Positions 30,679 through 63,233 of a stretch of 64,000 bases of DNA are shown here, piece after piece. The notes beneath the pieces were generated by a model that searched no databases, had not been told where the DNA came from, and was given only the letters and a program-made list of their open reading frames with translations. The stretch is taken from NCBI GenBank assembly GCA_015059285.1, contig SVAS01000001.1, positions 256,217 through 320,216 of the forward strand, written 5' to 3'. Numbering within the stretch: the first letter of the stretch is position 1; every line of letters begins with the position of its first letter. The stretch is from Bacillota bacterium. Its GTDB lineage: Bacteria > Bacillota_I > Bacilli_A > RF39 > UBA660. The position numbers were made by a program, and so were the translations under genes.

Positions 30679-31017
30679 ATGAAGAGTGTGAAAGGGCAAG
30701 CATTAGTGGAATTTGTGATAATTATTCCAATATTTTTTATAATTCTTTTTAGTGCTATTGATTTGGGTAATATTATATATAAAAAATATCAAATGGAAAA
30801 TGATTTAGATTATGTTGTTGATTTATATCGTCAAAATAAAACTAGTGAAATAAATGTTTATGTAAATAAACAAGGACTTATATTAAAAACAGAAAAAATA
30901 GAAGAAACGGTTAAAATTAGTTTAGAAAAAACAGTTAAAATAAATACCCCTGGTATGAATATAATTATCAATAATCCATATAAGATAGTTGTAGATAGGG
31001 TAGTTTATGATGAATAA
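30679..31017 (+). CDS. tadE: TadE-like pseudopilin
   Basis: 112 residues starting MKSVKGQALVEFVIIIPIFF, the TadE-type prepilin helix (GQALVEF, Glu at +5), followed by IDLGNIIYKKYQMEND and a short lysine-rich extracellular part. TadE-like minor pilins help start or anchor Tad pili. It is the first gene of a six-gene operon; the next gene overlaps its end by a few bases. GAGGGTG precedes the ATG, with a TATAAT near 30649. Confidence 0.85.
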   Translation: MKSVKGQALVEFVIIIPIFFIILFSAIDLGNIIYKKYQMENDLDYVVDLYRQNKTSEINVYVNKQGLILKTEKIEETVKISLEKTVKINTPGMNIIINNPYKIVVDRVVYDE

Positions 31018-31399
31018 AAATAAAGGTCAAGTTTTAGTAGCGTTTATTTTACTTTTACCAGTACTATTTATGTTTATGGGGTTAATTGTAGATGTTGGTT
31101 ATTTATATATTGAAAAACGTCATATTGATAATAATGTTAAAGATGTTTTAGAGTTTGGTTTAACGCATATTGAGCAAGATACTAATATTATCAAAAGTAA
31201 AATAAAAAAACAATTAGATTTAAATATAGATGATATTAAGAATTTAGATATTAAAGTAGAAAATCAAATAATTGAAGTGAAATTAGAAAAAAGTAAAAAA
31301 AGTATTTTTTCAGTTATTTTTTCTAAGTTTGAGTATAAAATTTCTAGTGATTATCGTGGTTATATTAATGAAGAAGAAATAGTTATAAGAAAGGCATAG
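31007..31399 (+). CDS. TadE/TadG-like pseudopilin
   Basis: 130 residues (129 if the second ATG is used). It starts MMNKNKGQVLVAFILLLPVL, an N-terminal helix like TadE but with Ala instead of the usual Glu at the fifth mature position (VLVAF against ALVEF), then VDVGYLYIEKRHIDNN. The loss of that Glu, which normally aligns subunits, suggests a capping or minor role. It overlaps the tadE stop, so it is coupled to it. Confidence 0.75.
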   Translation: MMNKNKGQVLVAFILLLPVLFMFMGLIVDVGYLYIEKRHIDNNVKDVLEFGLTHIEQDTNIIKSKIKKQLDLNIDDIKNLDIKVENQIIEVKLEKSKKSIFSVIFSKFEYKISSDYRGYINEEEIVIRKA

Positions 31400-31407
31400 G
31401 TGGATTT

Positions 31408-32181
31408 ATGGCAATTAGTAAAGGAAAAGTAATTACAGTTACATCTGTAAAAGGAGGAACTGGAAAAACAACAACGCTTTTAAATCTTGCTGGTATATAT
31501 TCTTTAATGGGTAAAAAGGTATTAGTTGTGGATTTTGATTTATATACAGGTGCTATAGCTGCTTCTTTAAATGTTGAAATTACAAACGATATTTATAAAT
31601 TGGTTGATGATTTGATGAATAATCGTTTTGATTATATAGAAAAATATGTGTTATCTTATAGCGAAAATATTCATGTACTAGCGTCTCCTAAAGACCCTAG
31701 ATATGCTAGTAAAATTAGTAGTAAATATCTAAAAATCATTTTAACTAGAGCTGCTATGAAATATGATATTGTTTTAGTTGATACTAATCATGCTTTAGAT
31801 GAAAAGAATTTAGTTACTTTAGATAATAGTGATGAAATTGTTTATGTTATTAATAATGATCCAATTGATTTAAAAAATATGAAAACAATAGTTTCTATTT
31901 ATAAAGATTTAGATAAAAAGAATTATAAAATAGTACTTAATGAATCTTTTGATAAATCTAGAAATTATTTTAACAAATATGATATTAAAAACATTATTAA
32001 AGACAATATAGACTATATTATTCCATCAACATTTTATATAAAAAATATTGATAAATATGTTTTGGATGCTGAAATATTAACTTTAAATAAACAAATTAGA
32101 AACACTCATAAAAAAGAAATTAAGAATTTTGAAAATTTGGCTAAAAATTTATTAAAAGAAGAGAGTAAGGTGAAAGAATGA
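31408..32181 (+). CDS. tadZ: TadZ/CpaE-like ParA-type ATPase
   Basis: 257 residues. A deviant Walker A is present: SVKGGTGKTTTLLNLA, with the signature Lys of the MinD/ParA family, followed by VVDFDLYTGAIA and a Walker B-like VLVDTNHALDE. TadZ/CpaE proteins place the Tad machine at its cell site. This copy lacks the N-terminal receiver-like domain found in some CpaE proteins. It precedes cpaF with a 4-base overlap (ATGA). Confidence 0.88.
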   Translation: MAISKGKVITVTSVKGGTGKTTTLLNLAGIYSLMGKKVLVVDFDLYTGAIAASLNVEITNDIYKLVDDLMNNRFDYIEKYVLSYSENIHVLASPKDPRYASKISSKYLKIILTRAAMKYDIVLVDTNHALDEKNLVTLDNSDEIVYVINNDPIDLKNMKTIVSIYKDLDKKNYKIVLNESFDKSRNYFNKYDIKNIIKDNIDYIIPSTFYIKNIDKYVLDAEILTLNKQIRNTHKKEIKNFENLAKNLLKEESKVKE

Positions 32182-33503
32182 AAAACTTAACGGATGAATT
32201 TAATATTAATATTGAAAATCCTACTTATGAAGAAGTTGTTGATTATGAAGCTTTTTCTAATAAACCTTTACTTGAAGAACTTAGAAATAAAATTATTCAA
32301 AATTTGATTGATAATCACATTAATAGTACTAAAAATTTAGATGAGTTTATAAAAACAGAAATAGATAAAACATTAGAAGGATATGATATTTCTAATGTTG
32401 AAAGAAGTTATTTATATAATTTGATTGATAATGAAATTAATGGTTTTGGTCCAATTACAGAACTAATGGAAGATAAAAGCATTACAGAAATTATGGTTAA
32501 TGGACCTGATGAAATTTACATTGAATTAGATGGTAAAGTAGTACGAGATAGGAGTGTATCATTTATTAATGATGATCATATAGTAAGAACTATTCAAAGA
32601 ATGATACAACCATTAGGAAGAACAATAGATTTAGCGAATCCAATGGTGGATGCTAGATTAGAAGATGGTTCTCGTCTTAATGCTGTTATTCCACCTCTAG
32701 CAATCCATGGGCCAGTTTTAACAATCCGTAAATTCAAAGAAGAGCTTGCTAATATTGATGACTTTTTAAGAAGCGGGACATTAACTCCATATATGGCACG
32801 TTTTTTAGAAGCTTGTGTACAAGCTAAATTAAATATGATTATTTGTGGTGGTACTGGTAGTGGTAAAACTACACTTTTAAATGTTTTATCTTCGTTTATA
32901 GGTAATGATGAACGTATTATTACAATTGAAGATGCTGCTGAACTTCGTTTAAAACAAAATCATGTTATTTCTTTGGAAACTCGTTTAGTTAATTACGAAG
33001 GACAAGGAGAAGTAACAATTCGTGATTTGGTTATTAACTCTCTTCGTATGCGTCCTGATCGTATTATTGTTGGTGAAGTTCGTGGAAAAGAAGCTTTTGA
33101 TATGCTTCAAGCTATGAATACAGGACATACAGGAAGTTTAACTACAATGCATGCTAACTCATCATATGATGCTTTAAATAGGCTTGAAACAATGATATTA
33201 ATGGCTGGAATGGAAATTCCTATCAAAGCATTACGTGAATATATAGAAAACGCTATTGATATAGTTGTTGAAGTAGAAAGATTAGGCGATGGTCGTCGTC
33301 GAGTAACCAATATTAGTGAAATTGTTGGTTTTAAAGATGATGTTATAGAATTAAAAAGAATATTTGGTTTTACACAAACAGGACTTTTAGATAATGGGGA
33401 AGTAAAAGGAGAATTTATTTTAGAGGATTATATACCTAAAGTATATGGTAAAATTAAATCTCATGGTATAGATTCATTAAAAGATATTTTTGAAAATAGG
33501 TGA
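32178..33503 (+). CDS. cpaF: TadA/CpaF secretion ATPase
   Basis: 441 residues, hexameric motor for Tad pilus assembly in the cytoplasm. Marks: [15 protein letters not shown] (N-terminal domain), Walker [27 protein letters not shown] (Asp box), [18 protein letters not shown] (Walker B) and [15 protein letters not shown] (His box). All catalytic motifs are intact. It follows tadZ with overlap and precedes the tadB-like fusion by 4 bases. Confidence 0.96.
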
Positions 33504-33507
33504 TATT

Positions 33508-35019
33508 ATGAATGAAAGAATTGATAGTTTAAATATTGCTAGTCAAATTAAACCTATCAATAAAGACATAATAGTTGAATATACACCTAGTACTAACGTT
33601 GTAAGTTATAGTTATACTCTTTATAAAAATGAAGAAATTATAGATACTTATAACTCTAATACTAATAAAAAAACATCTATTATTATGGATGAGACGGGTG
33701 TATATAAAATTGTTATAAAAGAGATAGATAGTAGTGGTAAAGAAATAACTTTAAATAGTGGTTTTTATAATATTGATAAAGAAAAACCTATTATTGAAGT
33801 TAGTGAGCAACTACTTACTATGGAATTAGGAGATAAATTAGATTTATTTTCTGATGTTAAAGTAACTGATAATTTTGATGGTAATTTAACTAATAAAATT
33901 ACTACTAATTATAATGAGTTAGATTTTAATACAACCGGTATTAAAAAACTTGTTTATACAGTTTCCGATGAAGCAGGTAATATAGCTAGTAAAACAGTTA
34001 ATATTAATGTAGTAAGTAATGTAACTGATAGTTTAATTTATATTCAAATTGGTATTATTACAATACTAATTGCTATTTTATATCTACTTTTATCTTTTAG
34101 AAGAAGTGTTAATTTAGAAAAAAGAATTAGTAAATTTAGTATTAAACCTATCAAAGATAATTCTCTATCTCTATTTGATAATATCTTGAAATTTTATAAA
34201 AATTTAGTTTCAAAAATATCAAATGTTATTTCAAAATCAGTATTCATTCAAAAATATAGTAAAAGATTTGAAAAATATTTATCACTTTCTAAACACACTC
34301 ATAGTAGTGCTATAGACTTTGTGTCATCTAAATTGATTATTGGTTTTTCTTTCGTTTTGATGGCAATTTTCTCTAAAACAATTCAGTATCAAGTATTAAG
34401 TATTTATGAGGTATGTATCCCTTTTCTTATTGGTTTCTTTGTTTTAGATATTATCTATTTTTCTAAATATAAAATTTATAGAAATAAAATTGAAAATGAT
34501 TTACTTCAAGCAATAATTGTTATGAACAATGCTTTTAAATCTGGTAGAAGTATTACTCAAGCAATTGAACTTGTTACAACTGAATTAGATGGTGAAATTG
34601 CTTTAGAATTTAGAAAAATGAATATGGAACTTAGTTTTGGTTTAGGAATAGATGTTGTATTTGATCGTTTTGCTAAAAGAATAGATTTAGAAGAAGTTAC
34701 TTATCTAACTGCATCTCTTTCAATTTTAAATAAAACAGGTGGAAATATTATTAAAGTATTTTCATCAATTGAAAGATCTTTATTTAATAAAAAGAAACTT
34801 AATTTAGAATTAAAAGCGTTAATTGGTTCTTCAAAAATAATTGCTTATGTATTATTCTTTGTTCCAATATTCTTTATTATATTAGTAAGCTTAATTAATC
34901 CAAATTATTTTGCAGCTTTCTTTACTAATCCAATAGGTATAGTAATGCTTATATTTATGATAGTTTATTACATTACTTATATAGTAGTTGTTAATAAAGT
35001 AATGAAAGTAAGGATGTGA
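33508..35019 (+). CDS. tadB: TadB platform protein with N-terminal Ig-like ectodomain
   Basis: 503 residues. The C-terminal 300 residues are a T2SSF/TadB domain (AIIVMNNAFKSGRSITQAIE, FGLGIDVVFDRFAKR, LTASLSILNKTGGN) with several membrane helices. The first 170 residues are two beta-rich Ig-like modules; the second (about 95-168) resembles DUF5011 (DNFDGNLTNKI, FNTTGIKKLVYTVSDEAGN). A membrane helix at 175-197 is followed by RRSVNLEKR, so by the positive-inside rule the Ig modules face outward, although no signal peptide precedes them. Such an ectodomain is not a normal part of TadB. GGTGAT precedes the ATG at 33508. Confidence 0.88.
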   Translation: MNERIDSLNIASQIKPINKDIIVEYTPSTNVVSYSYTLYKNEEIIDTYNSNTNKKTSIIMDETGVYKIVIKEIDSSGKEITLNSGFYNIDKEKPIIEVSEQLLTMELGDKLDLFSDVKVTDNFDGNLTNKITTNYNELDFNTTGIKKLVYTVSDEAGNIASKTVNINVVSNVTDSLIYIQIGIITILIAILYLLLSFRRSVNLEKRISKFSIKPIKDNSLSLFDNILKFYKNLVSKISNVISKSVFIQKYSKRFEKYLSLSKHTHSSAIDFVSSKLIIGFSFVLMAIFSKTIQYQVLSIYEVCIPFLIGFFVLDIIYFSKYKIYRNKIENDLLQAIIVMNNAFKSGRSITQAIELVTTELDGEIALEFRKMNMELSFGLGIDVVFDRFAKRIDLEEVTYLTASLSILNKTGGNIIKVFSSIERSLFNKKKLNLELKALIGSSKIIAYVLFFVPIFFIILVSLINPNYFAAFFTNPIGIVMLIFMIVYYITYIVVVNKVMKVRM

Positions 35020-35023
35020 TAAT

Positions 35024-35725
35024 ATGAATAAATCAGAAAATAGAATAATTAGAAAAATTTATCGCAGTAAAGACATAGAACAAATAGAAGAAAAAATTGC
35101 TATGTTAGGTAATACTAAATTAGATGCTATTACATTTATGAACTTTAGAATTATCTCTAGTTTAATTGTTTTTCTTGTTACTATTTATGTTACTAATTTA
35201 GGATATATTTATGCACCGTTTATTACTTTAGCTTATTTTTATTTATATTATTATTTACTTATTCAATCACCACTTAAACAAAGAATAAAAAGATTGGATC
35301 GTGAAGCTCTACATTTTTTTGAAATTTTAACACTTACTTTGGAATCTGGGCGGAATTTAGAAAATTCTTTAGAAGTAACAGTTGCGAATGTTAATTCTGA
35401 ATTATCAAATGAATTTAGAAGAGTGCTATTTGAAGTGAAATTTGGAAAATCTTTACTTGAAGCTTTAGAAGATATGAAAAAAAGAATGCCTTCCGAAACT
35501 ATTAATAACATTCTTTTAAATATTACTCAAACAGATGTGTTTGGTAATAGTATATTAGAAACAATGTATAATCAAATTGATTTTTTAAGGGACAAACAAA
35601 TATTAGAGATTAAAGGAGAAATTAATAAAATTCCTAATAAAGTTAGTATTATCTCAGTATTATTTGTTGTTCCACTTATATTAATGCTTATTTTAGGACC
35701 ATTTATTATTAATTTTTTAGGTTAA
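35024..35725 (+). CDS. tadC: TadC platform protein
   Basis: 233 residues, second T2SSF-type membrane protein of the Tad machine. Two N-terminal helices (about 38-75), a cytoplasmic domain with FFEILTLTLESGRNLENSLE and RVLFEVKFGKSLLEALEDMKK, NITQTDVFGNSILETM, and a C-terminal helix. It pairs with TadB in the inner-membrane platform driven by CpaF. Starts 4 bases after tadB. Last gene of the operon; murC follows with its own promoter. Confidence 0.92.
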   Translation: MNKSENRIIRKIYRSKDIEQIEEKIAMLGNTKLDAITFMNFRIISSLIVFLVTIYVTNLGYIYAPFITLAYFYLYYYLLIQSPLKQRIKRLDREALHFFEILTLTLESGRNLENSLEVTVANVNSELSNEFRRVLFEVKFGKSLLEALEDMKKRMPSETINNILLNITQTDVFGNSILETMYNQIDFLRDKQILEIKGEINKIPNKVSIISVLFVVPLILMLILGPFIINFLG

Positions 35726-45663: not shown

Positions 45664-46695
45664 ATGAATAATTTTCAAGTTGTAATTGATGCTGGTCATG
45701 GTGGAGATGATTCTGGAGCTACCAGCAATAATGTTAAAGAAAAGGATTTAAATTTAATGATATCTAAATATATGTATGAACAATTTCAAAAGAAAGGAAT
45801 TCCTGTAAAATTAATTAGAACAACAGATGAGACGATTTCACCTAGTGAACGTGTGCAAAGGATTCTTAATGCATATGGAAATAAATCAAATGTAATTGTA
45901 ATTTCTAATCATATTAATTCTTCTTCTGATCAGGGGGCAGAAGGTGCAGAAATTATATATGCCCTTAGAAATAGTAATACTTTGGCAAAAAATGTTTTGC
46001 AAGCTTTAGAAAATGCTGGTCAACCAGTTAGAACATACTATCAAAGAAGATTGCCTAGTGACACATCTAAAGATTATTATTTTATTCATCGTGATACAGG
46101 TATCACTGAACCATTAATAATAGAATATGGATTTATTAATAATTTTAATGATTTGAATCGAATTCAGAATAATTATAGAAAGTATGTGGATGCGGTTGTT
46201 GATGCTGTTATAGCTACTAAACAAGGGACTGTTGTTAAACCAAATGTTCAAACAAAAAATACATATATAGTAAAAAGTGGAGATACACTATGGAAAATAG
46301 CTAATACAAATAATACAACAGTAGATGAATTAAAAAGGTTAAATGGTTTAATAAGTAACACATTATCAATAGGTCAAGTCTTAAAACTGCCTACTACAAG
46401 TGAAAGTAATACATATATAGTAAAAAGTGGAGATACACTATGGAAAATAGCTAATACAAATAATACAACAGTGGATGAATTAAAAAGGTTAAATAGTTTA
46501 ACAAGTAATACATTATCAATAGGTCAAGTCTTAAAACTGCCTACTACAAGTGGAAGTAATACATATATAGTAAAAAGTGGAGATACACTATGGAAAATAG
46601 CTAATACAAATAATACAACAGTAGATGAATTAAAAAGGTTAAATGGTTTAACAAGTAATACATTATCAATAGGTCAAGTCTTAAAAATAATGTAA
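45664..46695 (+). CDS. N-acetylmuramoyl-L-alanine amidase with three LysM repeats
   Basis: 343 residues. Residues 1-180 are an Amidase_3 domain: [14 protein letters not shown] (zinc His), [12 protein letters not shown] (zinc Glu region), VISNHINSS (zinc His) and [12 protein letters not shown] (catalytic Glu). It cuts the bond between MurNAc and the peptide. Three LysM modules follow (from about residue 200), each beginning [19 protein letters not shown], which bind peptidoglycan. There is no signal peptide: the catalytic domain begins at residue 4. In that it resembles CwlC-type mother-cell amidases and phage lysins rather than exported autolysins. GGAGGT precedes the ATG. Confidence 0.93.
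46261..46695 (+). repeat. Tandem 150-bp repeats encoding LysM modules
   Basis: Units start at 46261, 46411 and 46561, exactly 150 bp apart; the last is cut to 135 bp by the stop codon. The copies differ at only a handful of positions, so the expansion is recent or kept uniform by recombination. Confidence 0.95.
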
Positions 46696-56060: not shown

Positions 56061-56174
56061 ATATACTCCTTTCTAATTTATTATATGAAAAAAGCAAAAA
56101 ATGTTTTACAAAATTTGAATTTGTGATATAATTTATATAGTATAGAATAAAGTAAGGGATTGGAAGGTGTATAT

Positions 56175-58877
56175 ATGATAAACAAGCCTGTATATCTATG
56201 GCCTTTTATATTGGTTTATCGGATTGTTACATTTATTATAAAAGTTCCAATTCTTTTTGTGCGCTATTTTTGTTTAGGTTTCTATTTTGTAACTTATTTT
56301 TTACTAGCACAAATAATAACTTTGTTTTCACCAATATTTAGATATGGTTTTTTAGGATTAATGTTTTTGTGTTATATTGTTTATTTTATTTTAAAAACTT
56401 TATATAAATATTTGTTAAAGGGAATAAGGTATTTTGTAATAGGTTTAGCTTTCCCATTTATTATTTTATATAATAATATGAATAGTGAAACAGCTAAAGC
56501 AAAAAGAAAAGAAATTCGTAGACAACGTGAATTAAAGCGACAAGAAGAGATTGCTATTAAGGAACAACTAAGAATTGAAAAAGAAGAAAAAATTAGATTA
56601 GAGCAAGAAAAAAAACGTCTTGAGAAAGAAGAAATTCAAAAGCAAGAAGAATTAAAAAGACAAGAAGAGATTGCTAGAAAAGAACAATTAAGAATTGAAA
56701 AAGAAGAAAAAATCAGATTAGAACAAGAAAAGAAACGTCTTGAGAAAGAAGAAATCCAAAAACAAGAAGAATTAAAACGTCAAGAAGAGATTGCTAAAAA
56801 AGAACAATTAAGAATTGAAAAAGAAGAAAAAATCAGATTAGAACAAGAAAAGAAACGTCTTGAGAAAGAAGAAATTCAAAAACAAAGAGAATTAAAACGT
56901 CAAGAAAAACAAGCTAAAAAAGAACAATTAAGAATTGAAAAAGAAGAAAAAATCAGATTAGAACAAGAAAAGAAAAGACTTGAAAAAGAAGAAATTCAAA
57001 AACAAAGAGAATTAAAACAACAAGAAAAAGAGGCTAGAAAAGAACAATTGAGAATTGAAAATCAAACTTTATCTGAAAAAGCAGAACAAGGGCCTTTAGT
57101 TATTAAACAAGATAATGTGGATGAAGTAGAAGAAACTACTAAAGATGAATATACAATTCATGCACCACAAAATGAAATCTTAGATGATGAAAAAAATGAT
57201 GCACTAAAAAATAGAAATGCGTTATCTAAAGAAGAAAAGAAAAAATTAAAATTAGAACGAATTGAAGCTAAAAGAATGGCTAAAGAAGCCAAACTTTTAG
57301 AAAAAGAAAAACTTCGAAATTTATCAAAAGAAGAAAAGCAACAATTGAAATTAGAGAAGTTAGCTGCTAAAAAAGAAGCTAAAATGAAACGTGCTGAAGA
57401 AAGAAGAAAACAGCAAGAAAAATTGAATGATATTTATATCAATGAAAATGTTCAAATTGAAAAAATGACATTTGGTAAAAAATTAGCACAAATTTTAAAT
57501 GATATAAATCATTTACCAGATAAGATTTCAGAGTCTTTACAAAAAAGTTGGAATAATTCAACATTTGTAAAAAATCGTAAAAATCGTATGGATATGAGTA
57601 GACAAGCTTTACTTATCAATTTTGAAGGTGATGATGCTATTAAAAGCGATAAGAAAGTTGTTTATGAATATGTTGGTAAGAACGCTGATGGTAAATTAGT
57701 TAAAGGATATTTTGAAGCGTTCTCTAAAGTTGAAGTCCATTCCTTCTTATTAAGTGAAGGATTTGAAGTATATAGTATTAAAACTAATAGACTTATTCAA
57801 TTATTGCATGGAAATACACAAATTACAAAAACAAAAATTAAAGTTAAGGATTTAATATTCTTTTTAACACAATTGTCAACTTATATTAAAGCAGGTATTC
57901 CACTTGTTGAATCCCTTAAAATATTAAGTAGACAATATAAAAACAAATCATATCAACGTATATTTAGAGCAATTATATACGACTTGACAATGGGTGAAGC
58001 ATTTAGTGAAGCTCTAGCAAAACAAGGTAATGCTTTCCCTAAACTTTTAATTAATATGATTAAAGCCTCAGAAATGACAGGAGAGTTACCGGAAGCATTA
58101 GATGATATGGCTGAGTACTATACAGAAACAGATAAAACAAGAAAACAAATGATTACAGCGATGATGTATCCAAGTATTATATTTATCATATCAGTAGCAG
58201 CTGTTACATTTATTATGGTGTTTGTAGTACCAAAATTTGTAACTATTTATGAAAGTATGGATAATGCTAGATTACCATGGATTACTCAATTTGTAATAGA
58301 TGTTAGTACATTTATGGAAACTAGAATGGCTTTAATTATATTTGTAACAGGTTTAATAATAGCAGTAATGGTATATATATATAAACACGTAAAAACAATT
58401 AGAACTTTATTTCAATATTTAGTTATGCATATACCTGTATTTGGAAATGTTATTATATATAATGAAGTAACAATGTTTACTAAAACATTCTGTTCATTAT
58501 TGAGACACAATGTATTTATTACTGATAGTATGGAAATACTTAATAAAATTACAAACAATGAAATTTATAAAATGATTATTCTTGATACAATTACTAACTT
58601 AGCTCGTGGTGAAAAAATATCTTTAGCATTTAAAGATCATTGGGCAGTACCAATACCAGCATATGAAATGATTGTTACAGGGGAACGTACTGGACAATTA
58701 CCAGAGATGATGGGTAAAGTGTCAGCTTATTATCAAGAAATGCATAAAAATGCAGTCGCACGTATTAAAACATTTATCGAACCAGCGCTTATCTTATTTT
58801 TAACAGTAGTAGTTGGTGGTATTGTACTTTCAATTGTAGTACCAATGTTTGATATGTATAACAATATGGGATTATAA
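56175..58877 (+). CDS. pilC: PilC/GspF platform protein with N-terminal membrane domain and coiled-coil repeats
   Basis: 900 residues, about twice a normal PilC. Residues 1-100 hold three or four hydrophobic segments. Residues 117-295 are four and a half copies of a 40-residue charged helix (QEELKRQEEIARKEQLRIEK...), then a lysine/glutamate-rich linker to about 440. The C-terminal 400 residues are a complete GspF-type platform: VKDLIFFLTQLSTYIKAGIP, GEAFSEALAKQGNAFPKLLI, EMTGELPEALDDMAEYY, the repeat half FTKTFCSLLRHNVFITDSME, GERTGQLPEMM. The ATG at 56175 has GGAAGGTG upstream. The platform for the type IV pilus with PilB (59686) and PilD (58894). The extension is unusual. Confidence 0.9.
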   Translation: MINKPVYLWPFILVYRIVTFIIKVPILFVRYFCLGFYFVTYFLLAQIITLFSPIFRYGFLGLMFLCYIVYFILKTLYKYLLKGIRYFVIGLAFPFIILYNNMNSETAKAKRKEIRRQRELKRQEEIAIKEQLRIEKEEKIRLEQEKKRLEKEEIQKQEELKRQEEIARKEQLRIEKEEKIRLEQEKKRLEKEEIQKQEELKRQEEIAKKEQLRIEKEEKIRLEQEKKRLEKEEIQKQRELKRQEKQAKKEQLRIEKEEKIRLEQEKKRLEKEEIQKQRELKQQEKEARKEQLRIENQTLSEKAEQGPLVIKQDNVDEVEETTKDEYTIHAPQNEILDDEKNDALKNRNALSKEEKKKLKLERIEAKRMAKEAKLLEKEKLRNLSKEEKQQLKLEKLAAKKEAKMKRAEERRKQQEKLNDIYINENVQIEKMTFGKKLAQILNDINHLPDKISESLQKSWNNSTFVKNRKNRMDMSRQALLINFEGDDAIKSDKKVVYEYVGKNADGKLVKGYFEAFSKVEVHSFLLSEGFEVYSIKTNRLIQLLHGNTQITKTKIKVKDLIFFLTQLSTYIKAGIPLVESLKILSRQYKNKSYQRIFRAIIYDLTMGEAFSEALAKQGNAFPKLLINMIKASEMTGELPEALDDMAEYYTETDKTRKQMITAMMYPSIIFIISVAAVTFIMVFVVPKFVTIYESMDNARLPWITQFVIDVSTFMETRMALIIFVTGLIIAVMVYIYKHVKTIRTLFQYLVMHIPVFGNVIIYNEVTMFTKTFCSLLRHNVFITDSMEILNKITNNEIYKMIILDTITNLARGEKISLAFKDHWAVPIPAYEMIVTGERTGQLPEMMGKVSAYYQEMHKNAVARIKTFIEPALILFLTVVVGGIVLSIVVPMFDMYNNMGL
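56523..57061 (+). repeat. 120-bp tandem repeats encoding a 40-residue coiled-coil unit
   Basis: Copies begin at 56523, 56643, 56763 and 56883, with a partial fifth at 57003. The DNA copies are highly alike with scattered third-position changes and a few R/Q/K/E substitutions. Likely to vary in copy number among strains. Confidence 0.95.
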
Positions 58878-58893: not shown

Positions 58894-59655
58894 ATGGACA
58901 TTTATTATATGATAGTACTTTTTATATTTGGAACTATTTTAGGCTCATTTTATAATGTAGTAGGGGATAGATTGCCAGAAGGAAAGTCAATAGTAAAACC
59001 ATCTTCTCACTGTCCTAAATGTGGACATAAATTAACACCCTTGGAGTTAATTCCTATTTTTTCTTATTTAATACAAAAAGGAAGATGTAAAGGTTGTAAT
59101 ACCAAAATACCTATAATGCATCCGTTATTTGAATTTATGAGTGGACTTTTATTTATGTTAGCTTATATTTCATTTAAACTTTCACCAGAATTATTAATAG
59201 CACTTACATTTATTTCAATACTTTTAATTATATTTATTAGTGATATTGAATATATGATTATACCTGATGAAGTGCTTATAGTAGGTATTATATTATTGGT
59301 TATTGAAAAGTTTTGTATACATGGATTAAAACCACTATTAATTTCATTATTAGATGGAACAATATGTTTTATCTTAATGTATTTATTAAAAAAATTTGGT
59401 GACTTCTTATTTAAAAAAGAATCTATGGGTGGTGGAGATATAAAACTGATGTTTATCTTTGGTTTTGTATTAGGTACGCCAATGGCAATTATGTCAATCT
59501 TTATTGGTTCTATTATAGGTTTACCTATATCGCTAATAGTATTATCAAAAAATGCTTCTCATGAAATACCTTTTGGGCCACTTCTTAGTTTAGGAGCATT
59601 AATTATACTATTAACAAAATTTAATTTTGATAAATTTTTAGGCTTATTTAGTTAA
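58894..59655 (+). CDS. pilD: Prepilin peptidase (A24, PilD type)
   Basis: 253 residues. It cuts prepilin leaders after Gly on the cytoplasmic side of the membrane and may methylate the new N-terminus. N-terminal GTILGSFYNVVGDRLPEG, two CxxC pairs (CPKCGHKLT and CKGCNT), then the catalytic aspartates in ISDIEYMIIPDE and MGGGDIKLMFIFG. It has all parts of bifunctional PilD. It is the only prepilin peptidase seen in the window, so it may process both the type IV and Flp prepilins. Follows pilC by 16 bases. Confidence 0.95.
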   Translation: MDIYYMIVLFIFGTILGSFYNVVGDRLPEGKSIVKPSSHCPKCGHKLTPLELIPIFSYLIQKGRCKGCNTKIPIMHPLFEFMSGLLFMLAYISFKLSPELLIALTFISILLIIFISDIEYMIIPDEVLIVGIILLVIEKFCIHGLKPLLISLLDGTICFILMYLLKKFGDFLFKKESMGGGDIKLMFIFGFVLGTPMAIMSIFIGSIIGLPISLIVLSKNASHEIPFGPLLSLGALIILLTKFNFDKFLGLFS

Positions 59656-59671
59656 GTCTTTTTTTATACAC

Positions 59672-59697
59672 AAAAAAAGCTATTTCTAGCTTTTTGT
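59672..59697. terminator. Bidirectional terminator between pilD and pilB
   Basis: AAAAAGCTA / TAGCTTTTT stem with a TTTC loop. Confidence 0.8.
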
Positions 59698-61068
59698 AAC
59701 TTCTTCTAATAGTTTATCAATGGCAGGAATATTATCTTCATTTTCTTCTTTGTCATCTTTTTTATTTTTGTCTTTTATTTTACTGTCGTTATTTTTCTTA
59801 TCATCTTTATTATCTTCTGAAGTACTATTAGCTATATTAGTATAATCAATTGCTTCTTGTAAACCATATTTTTCAACTTTTTCATCATCTTCAAGTTCAA
59901 TCAGTTTTAATAATTCTTCAAAAGTAGTAAGACCATTAGCAACTTTTTCAAGACCATCTTGAAGTAGAGTAATAACTTCAGATTGATATACTAACTCGCG
60001 CAATTCTTCTTTTTTTACACCACTACTAATTGCATCTTTGATTTCTTGATTAATAAGTAATACTTCATGAATAGCAATACGACCTTTATAACCATTTGCA
60101 CATTCATCACAAGTTTCAGCAGAATATATTTCATCTACATCTTTATTTAAAATTTCTTTAAATAATTTTTTTTCATATTCATTAGTTTTTCTAAGTTTAC
60201 GACATTTTGGACATAAACGACGAGCTAGTTTTTGAGAAATAATTCCTGTAATAGCACTTGATAATAAATATCTTTCAACTTCCATATCAAGTAAACGCTC
60301 AATAGTATTTAATGAATCGTTAGTATGTAGTGTTGATAAAACTAAGTGACCTGTAATAGAAGCTCTAACGGCAATTTTAGCTGTTTCTGTATCACGAATT
60401 TCCCCAATCATTATTATGTTAGGGTCTTGACGTAAAATTGAACGAAGTGCAGTTGCGAATGTAAGACCAATTTCACTATTTGTTTGAATTTGGTTAACCC
60501 CTTCAATATCCATTTCAATTGGATCTTCTACAGTAATAATATTTGTGTTTTCTTTATTTAGTTTTTGTAAAATAGAGTAAACAGTAGTTGATTTACCACT
60601 ACCGGTAGCTCCAGTTACTAAGATAATACCATTAGGAACATTAATCATTTTTAAAACTTTTAAATAATTTGCTTCACTAAATCCTAAATGTTCTAGTCCG
60701 CTTAAACTCATAGAATAATCTAGAATACGAATAACGACTTTTTCACCGTTACTAGTAGGAATAGCAGAAACACGAAGATCTAGATTAACATCTTTTAAAG
60801 TAGCTTTAATAGCACCATCTTGAGGCAATCTGCTTTCTGTAATGTTCATTCCTGAAATAATTTTAATACGAGTAATTAAATTTTTCTTAAATGTATTAGG
60901 AATTTCAGCATAATCTTGTAAATCACCATCTATACGAATTCTAACTTTCATATATTTTTCATATGGATCAAAGTGAATATCACTAGCGCCTTTTTTTGCT
61001 GCATCTACTAATATATCATTAACTATTTCAACAATAGGCATTTTCTCAAAATCAAACATTTTTAACAT
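59686..61068 (-). CDS. pilB: PilB/GspE extension ATPase
   Basis: 460 residues. Hexameric motor of type IV pilus extension. ASDIHFDPYEKYMKVRIRIDG, RLPQDGAI, LRVSAIPTSNGEKVVIRI, Walker A VTGATGSGKSTTVYS, Asp box TVEDPIEMDIEGVNQIQ, Walker B ALRQDPN-type (SILRQDPNIIMIGEIRD), His box TGHLVLSTLHTND, and the zinc tetracysteine CPKC/CDEC. The N1 domain is missing and a low-complexity Asp/Lys/Asn tail of about 60 residues is added at the C-terminus. No PilT retraction ATPase is seen. It is opposite to, and convergent with, pilD, and divergent from two prepilin genes. Confidence 0.95.
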   Translation of the reverse strand: MLKMFDFEKMPIVEIVNDILVDAAKKGASDIHFDPYEKYMKVRIRIDGDLQDYAEIPNTFKKNLITRIKIISGMNITESRLPQDGAIKATLKDVNLDLRVSAIPTSNGEKVVIRILDYSMSLSGLEHLGFSEANYLKVLKMINVPNGIILVTGATGSGKSTTVYSILQKLNKENTNIITVEDPIEMDIEGVNQIQTNSEIGLTFATALRSILRQDPNIIMIGEIRDTETAKIAVRASITGHLVLSTLHTNDSLNTIERLLDMEVERYLLSSAITGIISQKLARRLCPKCRKLRKTNEYEKKLFKEILNKDVDEIYSAETCDECANGYKGRIAIHEVLLINQEIKDAISSGVKKEELRELVYQSEVITLLQDGLEKVANGLTTFEELLKLIELEDDEKVEKYGLQEAIDYTNIANSTSEDNKDDKKNNDSKIKDKNKKDDKEENEDNIPAIDKLLEEVTKS

Positions 61069-61167: not shown

Positions 61168-61659
61168 ATGAAAAAAATGAATAATAGGGGGTTCATGCTA
61201 TCAGAAACATTAATAGTTGCGACATTTTTAGTTACGACATTATTATTTCTTTATATTCAGTTTAATAAAGTAACAAAAACATATGATACCAGTTTTAAAT
61301 ATAACACAGTTAACGGTTTATATTCTACAAATAACATAATTGATTATATAAAGACAGATGGTTTAGAAAATTTAAAGATAGAACTTTTAAAAGAAGGAAT
61401 TGAATTTGTAGATATTACTAGTTGTCATACTGATTATTTTAAGGAAAAAGATTATTGTTCAGTACTTATAGAATCTTTAAATATAAAAACTGTAATTTTT
61501 ACTAATGAAAACTTGACAACATTAAAAAGTATTAATACAGGATTAAAACAAACAATCATAGATTTTATTGATTATATTAAATTTGAAGAAACTGATGGAT
61601 ACCGTGTAATTGTTGAATTTAATGATGATACATTTGCTAGTTTAAAAGTAAAAGAATAA
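61168..61659 (+). CDS. Minor type IV prepilin
   Basis: 163 residues. Leader MKKMNNRGFMLSETLIVATF: cleavage after Gly8, Phe at +1, Glu at +5, hydrophobic helix to about residue 28. The mature part is short and mixed, with two cysteines (TSCHTDYFKEKDYCSVL) 12 residues apart that could pair. GGGAGCG precedes the ATG. It starts an operon with the giant prepilin, divergent from pilB. Probably a minor pilin that primes assembly. Confidence 0.8.
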   Translation: MKKMNNRGFMLSETLIVATFLVTTLLFLYIQFNKVTKTYDTSFKYNTVNGLYSTNNIIDYIKTDGLENLKIELLKEGIEFVDITSCHTDYFKEKDYCSVLIESLNIKTVIFTNENLTTLKSINTGLKQTIIDFIDYIKFEETDGYRVIVEFNDDTFASLKVKE

Positions 61660-61670
61660 AAGGTGATAAT

Positions 61671-63233
61671 ATGAATTATAAAAAAGGGTTTACAATTGTT
61701 GAATTAATTGCATCTTTTGCACTAACATCTTTAATAGTAGCGCTTTTGTTTGAAGTGGTATTTATTTTAAAAGATTTATATACTGATTCTGGAATTAAAA
61801 CAGAACTTTTAACAAAACAAGCTTTAATGAGTGAAAAAATTAATGATGAATTTACAACCAAAACTTTGATGGTAGCTACCAAATGTGGTACTACTTGTAT
61901 AGATTTTATCTTTACAGATGGAACAAGTAGTAAGTTATCTTTTGATAGAAAAGAAAAAACATTTAAATATGGTAATTATAAAACAAAATTAGTAGATGGT
62001 AGTGAATATGGTAACATTGATATTTCTACAGAAACTGTGTTAAATGTGTCTTATGGTTTAAATAATTCAATTGTTAGAATCAAAATTCCTGTATATCATA
62101 AACTTTTAAAACAACAAGATTTTGGTATCAATATTGTTTATCAATATGATAGTAGAACGACAGCTATATCAGGTTTGTTCGTTTCGGATATTTTAGATTT
62201 AGAAAAAAGAATTTATTTAACGGGTTCTCAAAATGATATAGCATTTTCAGGTATTGCTTATCAAGATCCGGGATATTTTGTTGTAAGTGGCGATGGAACA
62301 GTTTCTGAGGATGATGAGAGTGTTATTGTAACTGGTAGTGTAGGTAGTGAAGTTGGAAAAACTTATACTATTACTTATACTATATTAGATAGTAATGATA
62401 ATGTTATGGATGAAGTTACTCGTAATGTTAGTGTTATAGATTCCTCAACTAGTTTTACGTATAATGGTAATGTACAAGGTTATACAGTTCCTGTAAATGG
62501 ACTATATAAAGTAGAAGTATGGGGAGCTCAAGGTGGGACAGTAGGAGAATACGCTGTTGGTGGTAAAGGCGGTTATACTACTGGTCAAATTAATTTGGCT
62601 AAAAATACCATTTTAAATATATATGTTGGTGGTCAAGGTTCTTTTGATAAAACTAAATCTGTATCAGGTGGATTTAATGGTGGAGGTGCTAGTGGATACG
62701 GTAGTGAAATATCAGGTGGTTCTGGTGGAGGTGCTAGTGATATTCGTCAAGGCGGGACCTCTTTAAATAATAGAATAATTGTAGCTGGCGGAGGCGGAGG
62801 TGCAGGAAGCCGTAATAGTTCAACTGATTTAGCAACTGGAGGCGCTGGCGGTGGAACGGAAGGTCTTCTTGGAGCTTATTCAACTGCTTCTTATAATGGA
62901 CAACCAGGAACTTCTTCTATAGGTGGTATAGCAGCAACATATACAACCAATGTAACCTCTTTACCCACAGCAGGGGATTTAGGTATTGGTGGAAACGGCG
63001 GAAGTTACTCTAACACATATGGTGGAGGTGGCGGAGGCGCTGGTTACTATGGAGGTGGCGGAGGAGTTCGCTATGGAACTGGTGCTGGTGGTTCTGGATA
63101 CTGTGGTAGTATGTTAAATTGTACTACTTATAACGGAACTCAAAGTTTTCCAACTACTAATGGCTTAAGTAATGAAACGGGTCATTCAGGAAATGGTTAT
63201 GTAAAAATAACTTTAGTTAGTATTACAAGTTAA
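61671..63233 (+). CDS. Large prepilin with Ig-like and glycine-rich (ALK-like) domains
   Basis: 520 residues. Leader MNYKKGFTIVELIASFALTS (cleavage after Gly6, Glu at +5). Residues 30-165 are a pseudopilin body with a CGTTC pair. Residues 185-260 form an Ig-like module of DUF5011 type (FSGIAYQDPGYFVVSG, VGKTYTITYTILDSN). From about 270 to the end is a glycine-rich domain: YTVPVNGLYKVEVWGAQGG, GGKGGYTTGQINL, LNIYVGGQGS, GGGASDIRQGG, RIIVAGGGGGAGS and a tail rich in GGGGG. This resembles the glycine-rich domain family named from ALK receptors. The product looks like an adhesin carried at the pilus tip. GGTGAT precedes the ATG. Confidence 0.85.
   Translation: MNYKKGFTIVELIASFALTSLIVALLFEVVFILKDLYTDSGIKTELLTKQALMSEKINDEFTTKTLMVATKCGTTCIDFIFTDGTSSKLSFDRKEKTFKYGNYKTKLVDGSEYGNIDISTETVLNVSYGLNNSIVRIKIPVYHKLLKQQDFGINIVYQYDSRTTAISGLFVSDILDLEKRIYLTGSQNDIAFSGIAYQDPGYFVVSGDGTVSEDDESVIVTGSVGSEVGKTYTITYTILDSNDNVMDEVTRNVSVIDSSTSFTYNGNVQGYTVPVNGLYKVEVWGAQGGTVGEYAVGGKGGYTTGQINLAKNTILNIYVGGQGSFDKTKSVSGGFNGGGASGYGSEISGGSGGGASDIRQGGTSLNNRIIVAGGGGGAGSRNSSTDLATGGAGGGTEGLLGAYSTASYNGQPGTSSIGGIAATYTTNVTSLPTAGDLGIGGNGGSYSNTYGGGGGGAGYYGGGGGVRYGTGAGGSGYCGSMLNCTTYNGTQSFPTTNGLSNETGHSGNGYVKITLVSITS

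Follow-up and report, generated by a model that had tools for sequence, protein, structure and literature searches.

What is the platform protein of a type IV pilus doing with about 494 extra residues ahead of a complete core? The question is raised by the window, the whole stretch of 64,000 nucleotides analysed here, in which pilC (56175–58877, forward strand) encodes 900 aa, or 905 aa if an alternative TTG at 56160 is used. The ATG at 56175 is the more likely start, and the best ribosome site (GGAAGG, 56162–56167) suits it. A promoter-like site lies upstream (TTTACA-16-TATAAT, with TG ahead of the second hexamer; 56105–56132, forward strand; 11 of 12 consensus positions), but it is weak on its own, since 48 such sites occur against 43.1 expected in shuffles. 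The PilC/GspF core occupies residues 495–897 (57657–58865, forward strand). Pfam T2SSF matches the C-terminal part of the protein (E 1.8e-49) in two stretches, at 167.3 bits against a cut-off of 25.2, and the full-length PilC/GspF models of NCBIfam align residues 497–896 to positions 1–399 of 401 at 266 bits, under the equivalog cut-offs (424 for GspF). The predicted first cytoplasmic domain superposes by Foldseek on the solved PilC/EpsF structures 2whn, 2vmb and 5nbg at 1.2–1.5 Å. The source genome (1.04 Mb, 5 contigs) has one such pilC gene.

The preliminary description had proposed a single protein in which a real PilC follows some 480 residues, and this holds, with a slightly longer extension. 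Two genes, a frameshift or a mis-joined repeat could mimic such a protein, the more so in metagenome-type assemblies, where repeats can mis-assemble. We nevertheless rejected this explanation as improbable in the extreme: the frame is free of internal stops up to 58877, the extension is found in the same frame in 108 of 108 relatives, and the repeat copies differ in phase, mostly synonymously.

The extension begins with a hydrophobic segment (residues 1–105) and a charged region with repeats; a linker then leads to a second charged helix, and a connector comes last. AlphaFold, run on the window sequence aligned with 64 of the best 80 GTDB loci, predicts a hydrophobic helix at residues 6–103 (56190–56483; all parts on the forward strand), with pLDDT of about 72–86 as far as residue 90, followed by a long charged helix at residues 107–298 (56493–57068; pLDDT 49–80), which is the arm proper and resembles a single alpha-helix. 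Within the arm, TRF places a tandem array of 4.4 copies of 120 nt (56529–57061; 91% match, score 833), close to the 4.5 copies of a 40-residue charged unit described before. The unit is exactly 40 codons, in frame with pilC, and relative to copy 1 the other copies differ by 9, 8 and 10 synonymous against 1, 2 and 4 nonsynonymous codons. A predicted disordered linker (residues 299–351; 57069–57227; pLDDT mostly below 50) leads to a second predicted charged helix (residues 352–417; 57228–57425), which holds two 21-aa copies spaced 33 aa apart, the products of a second, weaker pair of 63-nt repeats set 99 nt apart (57222–57383). The conserved connector (about residues 430–494; 57462–57656) ends just ahead of the PilC N-domain. 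Neither Pfam nor the PDB offered support for the extension as a relative of PilN or PilO, and the N-terminal helix had no sequence match in the PDB at E 1; a Pfam PFF1_TM match in the extension scored under its cut-off and was taken as compositional. Elsewhere in the window, a coding 150-nt tandem repeat (46258–46686; 2.9 copies, 97% match) encodes what we take to be LysM-like sequence.

The extension is a family-wide trait of a known platform protein. A draw at the level of the order (117 genomes, all in one family) yielded PilC in 108, and far from being absent in all relatives, an eventuality that the preliminary description had considered, the extension is present in all 108, at 27–496 aa with start codons chosen by rule; that of the window is the longest, and the other 107 have a median of 119. 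Two of these 107 extensions (L168 and L183) are open at the end of the locus, and on re-reading the L168 frame closed at 871 aa. None of seven PilC proteins from outside the family is extended (0–5 aa). All of the best 80 GTDB loci carry the extension as well, with 81–371 residues before an anchor that was placed slightly earlier. The relatives, suspected to belong to GTDB order RF39, are uncultured gut-type Bacilli/Tenericutes MAGs, including Candidatus Coprosoma intestinipullorum. A draw at class level (198 genomes, 84 matched) held 22 family members with frames of 444–908 aa and no extended PilC among the evaluable outsiders, G270 being left out because of a contig edge; long frames in G181 and G282 are read as non-coding upstream of the start, since an ATG lies directly ahead of the PilC N-domain. 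A draw across the phylum (295 genomes, 46 matches at E 1e-20) gave no further extended PilC. In the literature searched, which is largely open-access and was covered mostly at the level of titles and abstracts, no N-terminally extended PilC is described for this group.

Length and composition vary widely inside the family. A hydrophobic stretch is absent from 12 of the 108 extensions, a group that takes in both very short extensions and the long charged arms of L168 and L169; the L168 extension (L251 in genome G105) is about 470 aa, is charged throughout and repeats an 18-aa unit 7.3 times. On a FastTree phylogeny of 124 rows, from which rows with a core below 330 aa had been dropped beforehand, the class of extensions above 160 aa changed at least eight times on well-supported branches; two ComG-type rows that sit on long branches inside the family are probably misplaced. 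One comparison is with a relative from the same genus (L063/L003), in which the core is 88% identical, the extension is 313–323 aa and the 40-aa array is missing. The array of the window is a local expansion, and the repeats do change in number, as the preliminary description had judged them able to. Between these two proteins dN/dS is 0.09 in the core, 0.13 in the connector (70% identical), 0.38 in residues 297–430 and 0.52 in the membrane helix; constraint on the connector therefore comes close to that on the core, and it is loose in the outer parts.

How does the hydrophobic N-terminal part meet the membrane? The preliminary description had seen a membrane domain there; a membrane association stands, but the part is likely to be one in-plane amphipathic membrane helix, with a stripe of K/R at the headgroups, rather than a set of transmembrane segments. 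From 81 extensions, 80 had a hydrophobic domain by rule, 66 of these were of at least 50 aa, and removal of redundant sequences left 57. Across this set, of which 56 had enough K/R, lysine and arginine fall on a single helical stripe with a period of 3.66 (power 4.31, against a shuffle mean of 0.91 and maximum of 1.41, a comparison that overstates significance here and in the arm below, because homologous sequences, filtered by shared 5-mers or 4-mers, are dependent). K/R pairs are depleted at lag 9 (1 against 42 expected) and enriched at lag 22 (80 against 35), their phase is kept over lags of more than 100 residues, and D and E together make up 1.3% of residues. The stripe is visible in single proteins too: nine K/R share it in the window helix (R 0.86 at 3.667), and 22 in L086 (R 0.84). 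The order draw gave the same stripe in 25 domains of at least 50 aa (power 4.49, maximum 1.57) and a weaker one in 35 domains of 30–49 aa (1.64 against a maximum of 1.49). A control set of 256 hydrophobic domains (195 with enough K/R), drawn from the same loci but from ORFs other than pilC and including some ORFs without a check as genes, shows no peak (power 1.00 at 3.66); its median R is 0.42 against 0.81 in the PilC domains.

The in-plane position is favoured by the stripe, its long-range phase, the stripe-free controls and the helices predicted by AlphaFold: a single one in the window protein, and in L086 (input alignment of 35 of 80 loci) three long ones at residues 6–63, 67–139 and 145–255. 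Among relatives the membrane-lying helix would reach about 240 residues. A conventional transmembrane bundle is disfavoured, since stripe coherence and the AlphaFold models argue against loops between transmembrane segments. Charge-free runs of at least 19 residues are present in 35 of the 57 domains and missing from 22; in the window protein a 25-residue run (residues 31–55) lies between K/R positions and may form a single transmembrane pass. A striped hydrophobic helix of period 3.66 also cautions against taking every hydrophobic N-terminus for a transmembrane bundle.

The arm that follows had been described as a repeated coiled coil. A long and probably helical arm is borne out by the AlphaFold model, but the coiled coil is not: the arm lacks a heptad, and on sequence grounds it resembles a charged single helix. 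Residues 119–296 are 63% charged and the arm is nearly neutral (59 K+R, 54 D+E), with pairs running from E/D to K/R enriched at i+3 and i+4 (z 4.3 and 2.5). If wholly helical, residues 107–298 would span about 29 nm (192 × 0.15 nm). A coiled-coil arm, serving to dimerise PilC or to bind a second coiled coil, would agree with the helical prediction, but we consider it very unlikely: the best a/d register is 25% hydrophobic against 20% overall, and no hydrophobic peak at 3.5 appears in 47 nonredundant arms (from 62 of 199 extensions with a charged arm of at least 40 aa), in which K/R peak near 3.64 (2.84, shuffle maximum 1.78) and D/E near 3.62 (2.13, maximum 1.53).

Other extensions in the family carry arrays of their own. 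Well-matched arrays of at least three copies have units of 40 aa (window), 18 aa (L168, L134) and 29 aa (L088), alongside a pair of 22-aa copies in L067 and several arrays of 11-aa units. Such lengths are close to whole numbers of helical turns, and the 33-aa spacing of the second repeat pair in the window fits as well, as one case. A rule of integer turns is suggestive only, because the pitch of 3.636 was picked with the data already in view and some repeats depart from it: a 52-aa unit in L012 (1.8 copies), units of 118 nt (1.8 copies) and 14 aa in L169, and a weak 8-aa row in L168.

The remainder of the pilus machinery lies beside pilC, and many of the best 80 loci show the same gene order, dnaG-rpoD-trmK-yqfQ(-)-pilC-pilD-pilB(-)-pilins. 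The prepilin peptidase gene pilD (58894–59655, forward strand) matches A24_N_bact (2.9e-33) and Peptidase_A24 (6.8e-17). It is followed by pilB (59686–61068, reverse strand), which encodes an extension ATPase that matches positions 177–560 of 564 of TIGR02538 and has no N-terminal MshEN domain. Next come a pilin-like ORF (61168–61659, forward strand), labelled from its position and type IV pilin-like N-terminus, with no match in Pfam or NCBIfam, and a large pilin-like protein (61671–63233, forward strand; N_methyl 0.0003) with Ig-like (Bact_surface_Ig-like 1.6e-8) and C-terminal glycine-rich (ALK_LTK_GRD 1.7e-36) domains, which is possibly a tip adhesin. At L063, three further ORFs (268, 237 and 304 aa), absent from the window, lie between pilD and pilB. 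The window also contains a Tad-type pilus locus (30679–35725, forward strand) with TadE-like proteins, an AAA_31 ATPase, a TadA-like ATPase and two T2SSF platform proteins, the first of which (33490–35019) has an N-terminal addition as well, with an Ig-like domain. In the search for a retraction ATPase (PilT), the source genome gave, besides PilB, the TadA-like ATPase and one in a second Tad/Cpa-like cluster (L151, G000:C4:70500-75000), a label given by reading. Since 23 of 25 family genomes encode ComEC, the pilus may serve in DNA uptake.

Two parts of a complete type IVa machine are missing from the pil loci of the family. MshEN is found in none of the 25 family genomes; it occurs in five of 40 genomes, all outside the family and all with a full-length PilB, and at these five loci PilM/N/O-like genes adjoin pilC, as judged by reading the loci. 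No PilM/N/O-like BLAST match lies near pilC in any of 80 family loci. Profile models recover PilM at four of the five outside loci, PilN at one and PilO at none, so the absence of PilN and PilO from the family loci rests mainly on locus reading. The PilM model does match 20 of 25 family genomes, mostly in frames of about 415–450 aa; in the source genome (G000) the PilM_2 match is what we take to be an FtsA-like ORF beside an FtsZ-like ORF. On contig 3 of this genome a type IV pilin-like ORF (L150:6779-7807) lies directly downstream of an FtsZ-like gene. At its other end PilB carries an acidic tail, of 73 aa and net charge -9 in the window (59689–59907, reverse strand), which in the family spans 7–405 aa and is negative in 57 of 60 records (some genomes counted twice), compared with 0–7 aa outside it. 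Three of the 60 records are odd: L040 has a tail of 7 aa, and in L052 and L055 the match is preceded by 137 and 101 residues. The longest tail, of 405 residues (L041, genome G020), ends in repeated acidic motifs of LDDLKLDD type.

What, then, might the extension do? We propose, at a probability of roughly 0.4, that the arm acts in cis as a brace and takes the place of the PilM/N/O stator. On this proposal, one family of gut Bacilli with small genomes would have lengthened the N-terminus of a type IVa-like PilC by a cytoplasmic arm. Most versions would begin with a helix lying in the membrane's cytoplasmic face, continue with a charged helical spacer that differs greatly in length between proteins, and end in a conserved connector to the first cytoplasmic domain of PilC. 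The arm should be cytoplasmic because it is joined to that domain, which is cytoplasmic in the topology of PilC (PMC10191384). So placed, it would fix the platform laterally to the membrane, steady the platform and the PilB ring, and take over the job that the PilM socket and the membrane proteins PilN and PilO have in ordinary T4a pili. PilM has been presented as a stator socket that constrains PilB (PMC11656802); for a different class of pili, PMC6916266 asks how a platform-ATPase complex holds together without PilMNO, and PMC10191384 raises a similar question. The family-wide extension, the K/R stripe, the missing MshEN and PilM/N/O, the opposite net charges of PilC extension and PilB tail and the strong constraint on the connector (dN/dS 0.13) speak for a brace. 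Against it, the gain of the extension and the losses of MshEN and PilMNO coincide on one branch only, 12 of 108 extensions have no hydrophobic stretch, and the length and charge of the extension do not follow those of the PilB tail. Loss of PilMNO does not in itself demand an extension, since Com pili and the ComG-type relatives G025 and G034 have neither PilM/N/O nor MshEN nor an extension. A simple story of a lost docking domain is weakened by Thermus PilF, whose GSPII (N1) domains were reported from experiment not to be essential for PilMN binding, although one was needed for stimulation (PMC6325625).

Two other explanations are serious rivals to the brace. The membrane-lying helix and arm may have no mechanical role and may instead serve to position the pilus machine, whether at a pole, on a curved patch or in a lipid domain. 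Long amphipathic membrane helices suit the sensing of membranes or curvature, and the free variation of the arm in length and make-up is in keeping with such a task; yet the extensions that lack any hydrophobic stretch fit it poorly, and positioning by itself leaves the missing MshEN and PilMNO unexplained. We hold it to be a minority reading with an appreciable chance of being right. Somewhat less probable is loosely constrained accretion, in which tolerated low-complexity sequence at the N-terminus grows and shrinks in AT-rich reduced genomes. The outward climb of dN/dS from core to membrane helix, the repeated changes into or out of the longest class and the independence of the tandem arrays from each other are all as accretion would have them, but none of 108 family members has dispensed with the extension, dN/dS stays below 1 in every segment compared, and the K/R stripe goes far beyond composition and is absent from the control domains.

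An electrostatic dock, in which a basic arm keeps PilB near PilC through the new acidic and disordered tail, would account for a tail that is minimal outside the family and for net charges that are opposite in 36 of 37 loci with both parts (PilC extension positive in 37, PilB tail negative in 36). The lengths and charges of the two are, however, uncorrelated across these loci (rho 0.03 and 0.14, n=37), and the window arm is nearly neutral; a dock is accordingly unlikely. The brace remains our preferred reading. Its most far-reaching form, that the whole family swapped separate PilM/N/O proteins for a stator fused to PilC, made of a membrane-lying helix and a charged strut to which repeats add mostly near-whole turns (18, 29 or 40 aa), is doubtful as a whole, though with a real chance of being true. 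If it were true, strut length would change while the helix faces stay in register. The natural variants, with arms of 27–496 aa, are offered for testing what PilMNO does.

Several known systems bear comparison with the window protein. It shares the complete two-domain core of T4aP PilC and T2SS GspF (Thermus PilC 2WHN, V. cholerae EpsF 2VMB) and differs from them by its N-terminal extension of about 494 residues; unlike a complete T4aP machine, the locus has no MshEN (N1) domain on PilB and no PilM/N/O. The same absences are seen in the Com pilus (ComGB/ComGA), but the ComGB model gives the window PilC 135 bits, under both its cut-off of 240 and the PilC/GspF scores, the ATPase likewise misses the ComGA cut-off (270.2 of 300 bits), and relatives of ComGB type have no extension. 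As in SAH (ER/K) domains, the arm is highly charged, rich in E, K and R, predicted to be helical and enriched in i+3/i+4 pairs from E/D to K/R; unlike them, the arms of the family have repeats near whole helical turns (40, 29 and 18 aa) and weak charge faces. Apolipoproteins, alpha-synuclein and caveolin have membrane-surface helices with a periodicity of 11 residues, and the polar stripe of PilC is close to this 11/3 periodicity, although its helix is far more hydrophobic and has no sequence match in the PDB. With the PilM/PilN/PilO stator-alignment subcomplex (GspL/GspM in T2SS) the likeness is one of proposed role only, that of holding platform and ATPase: no sequence relation is seen, the extension sits in cis on PilC, and a probable membrane-lying helix stands where PilM/N/O has transmembrane helices and an external coiled coil.
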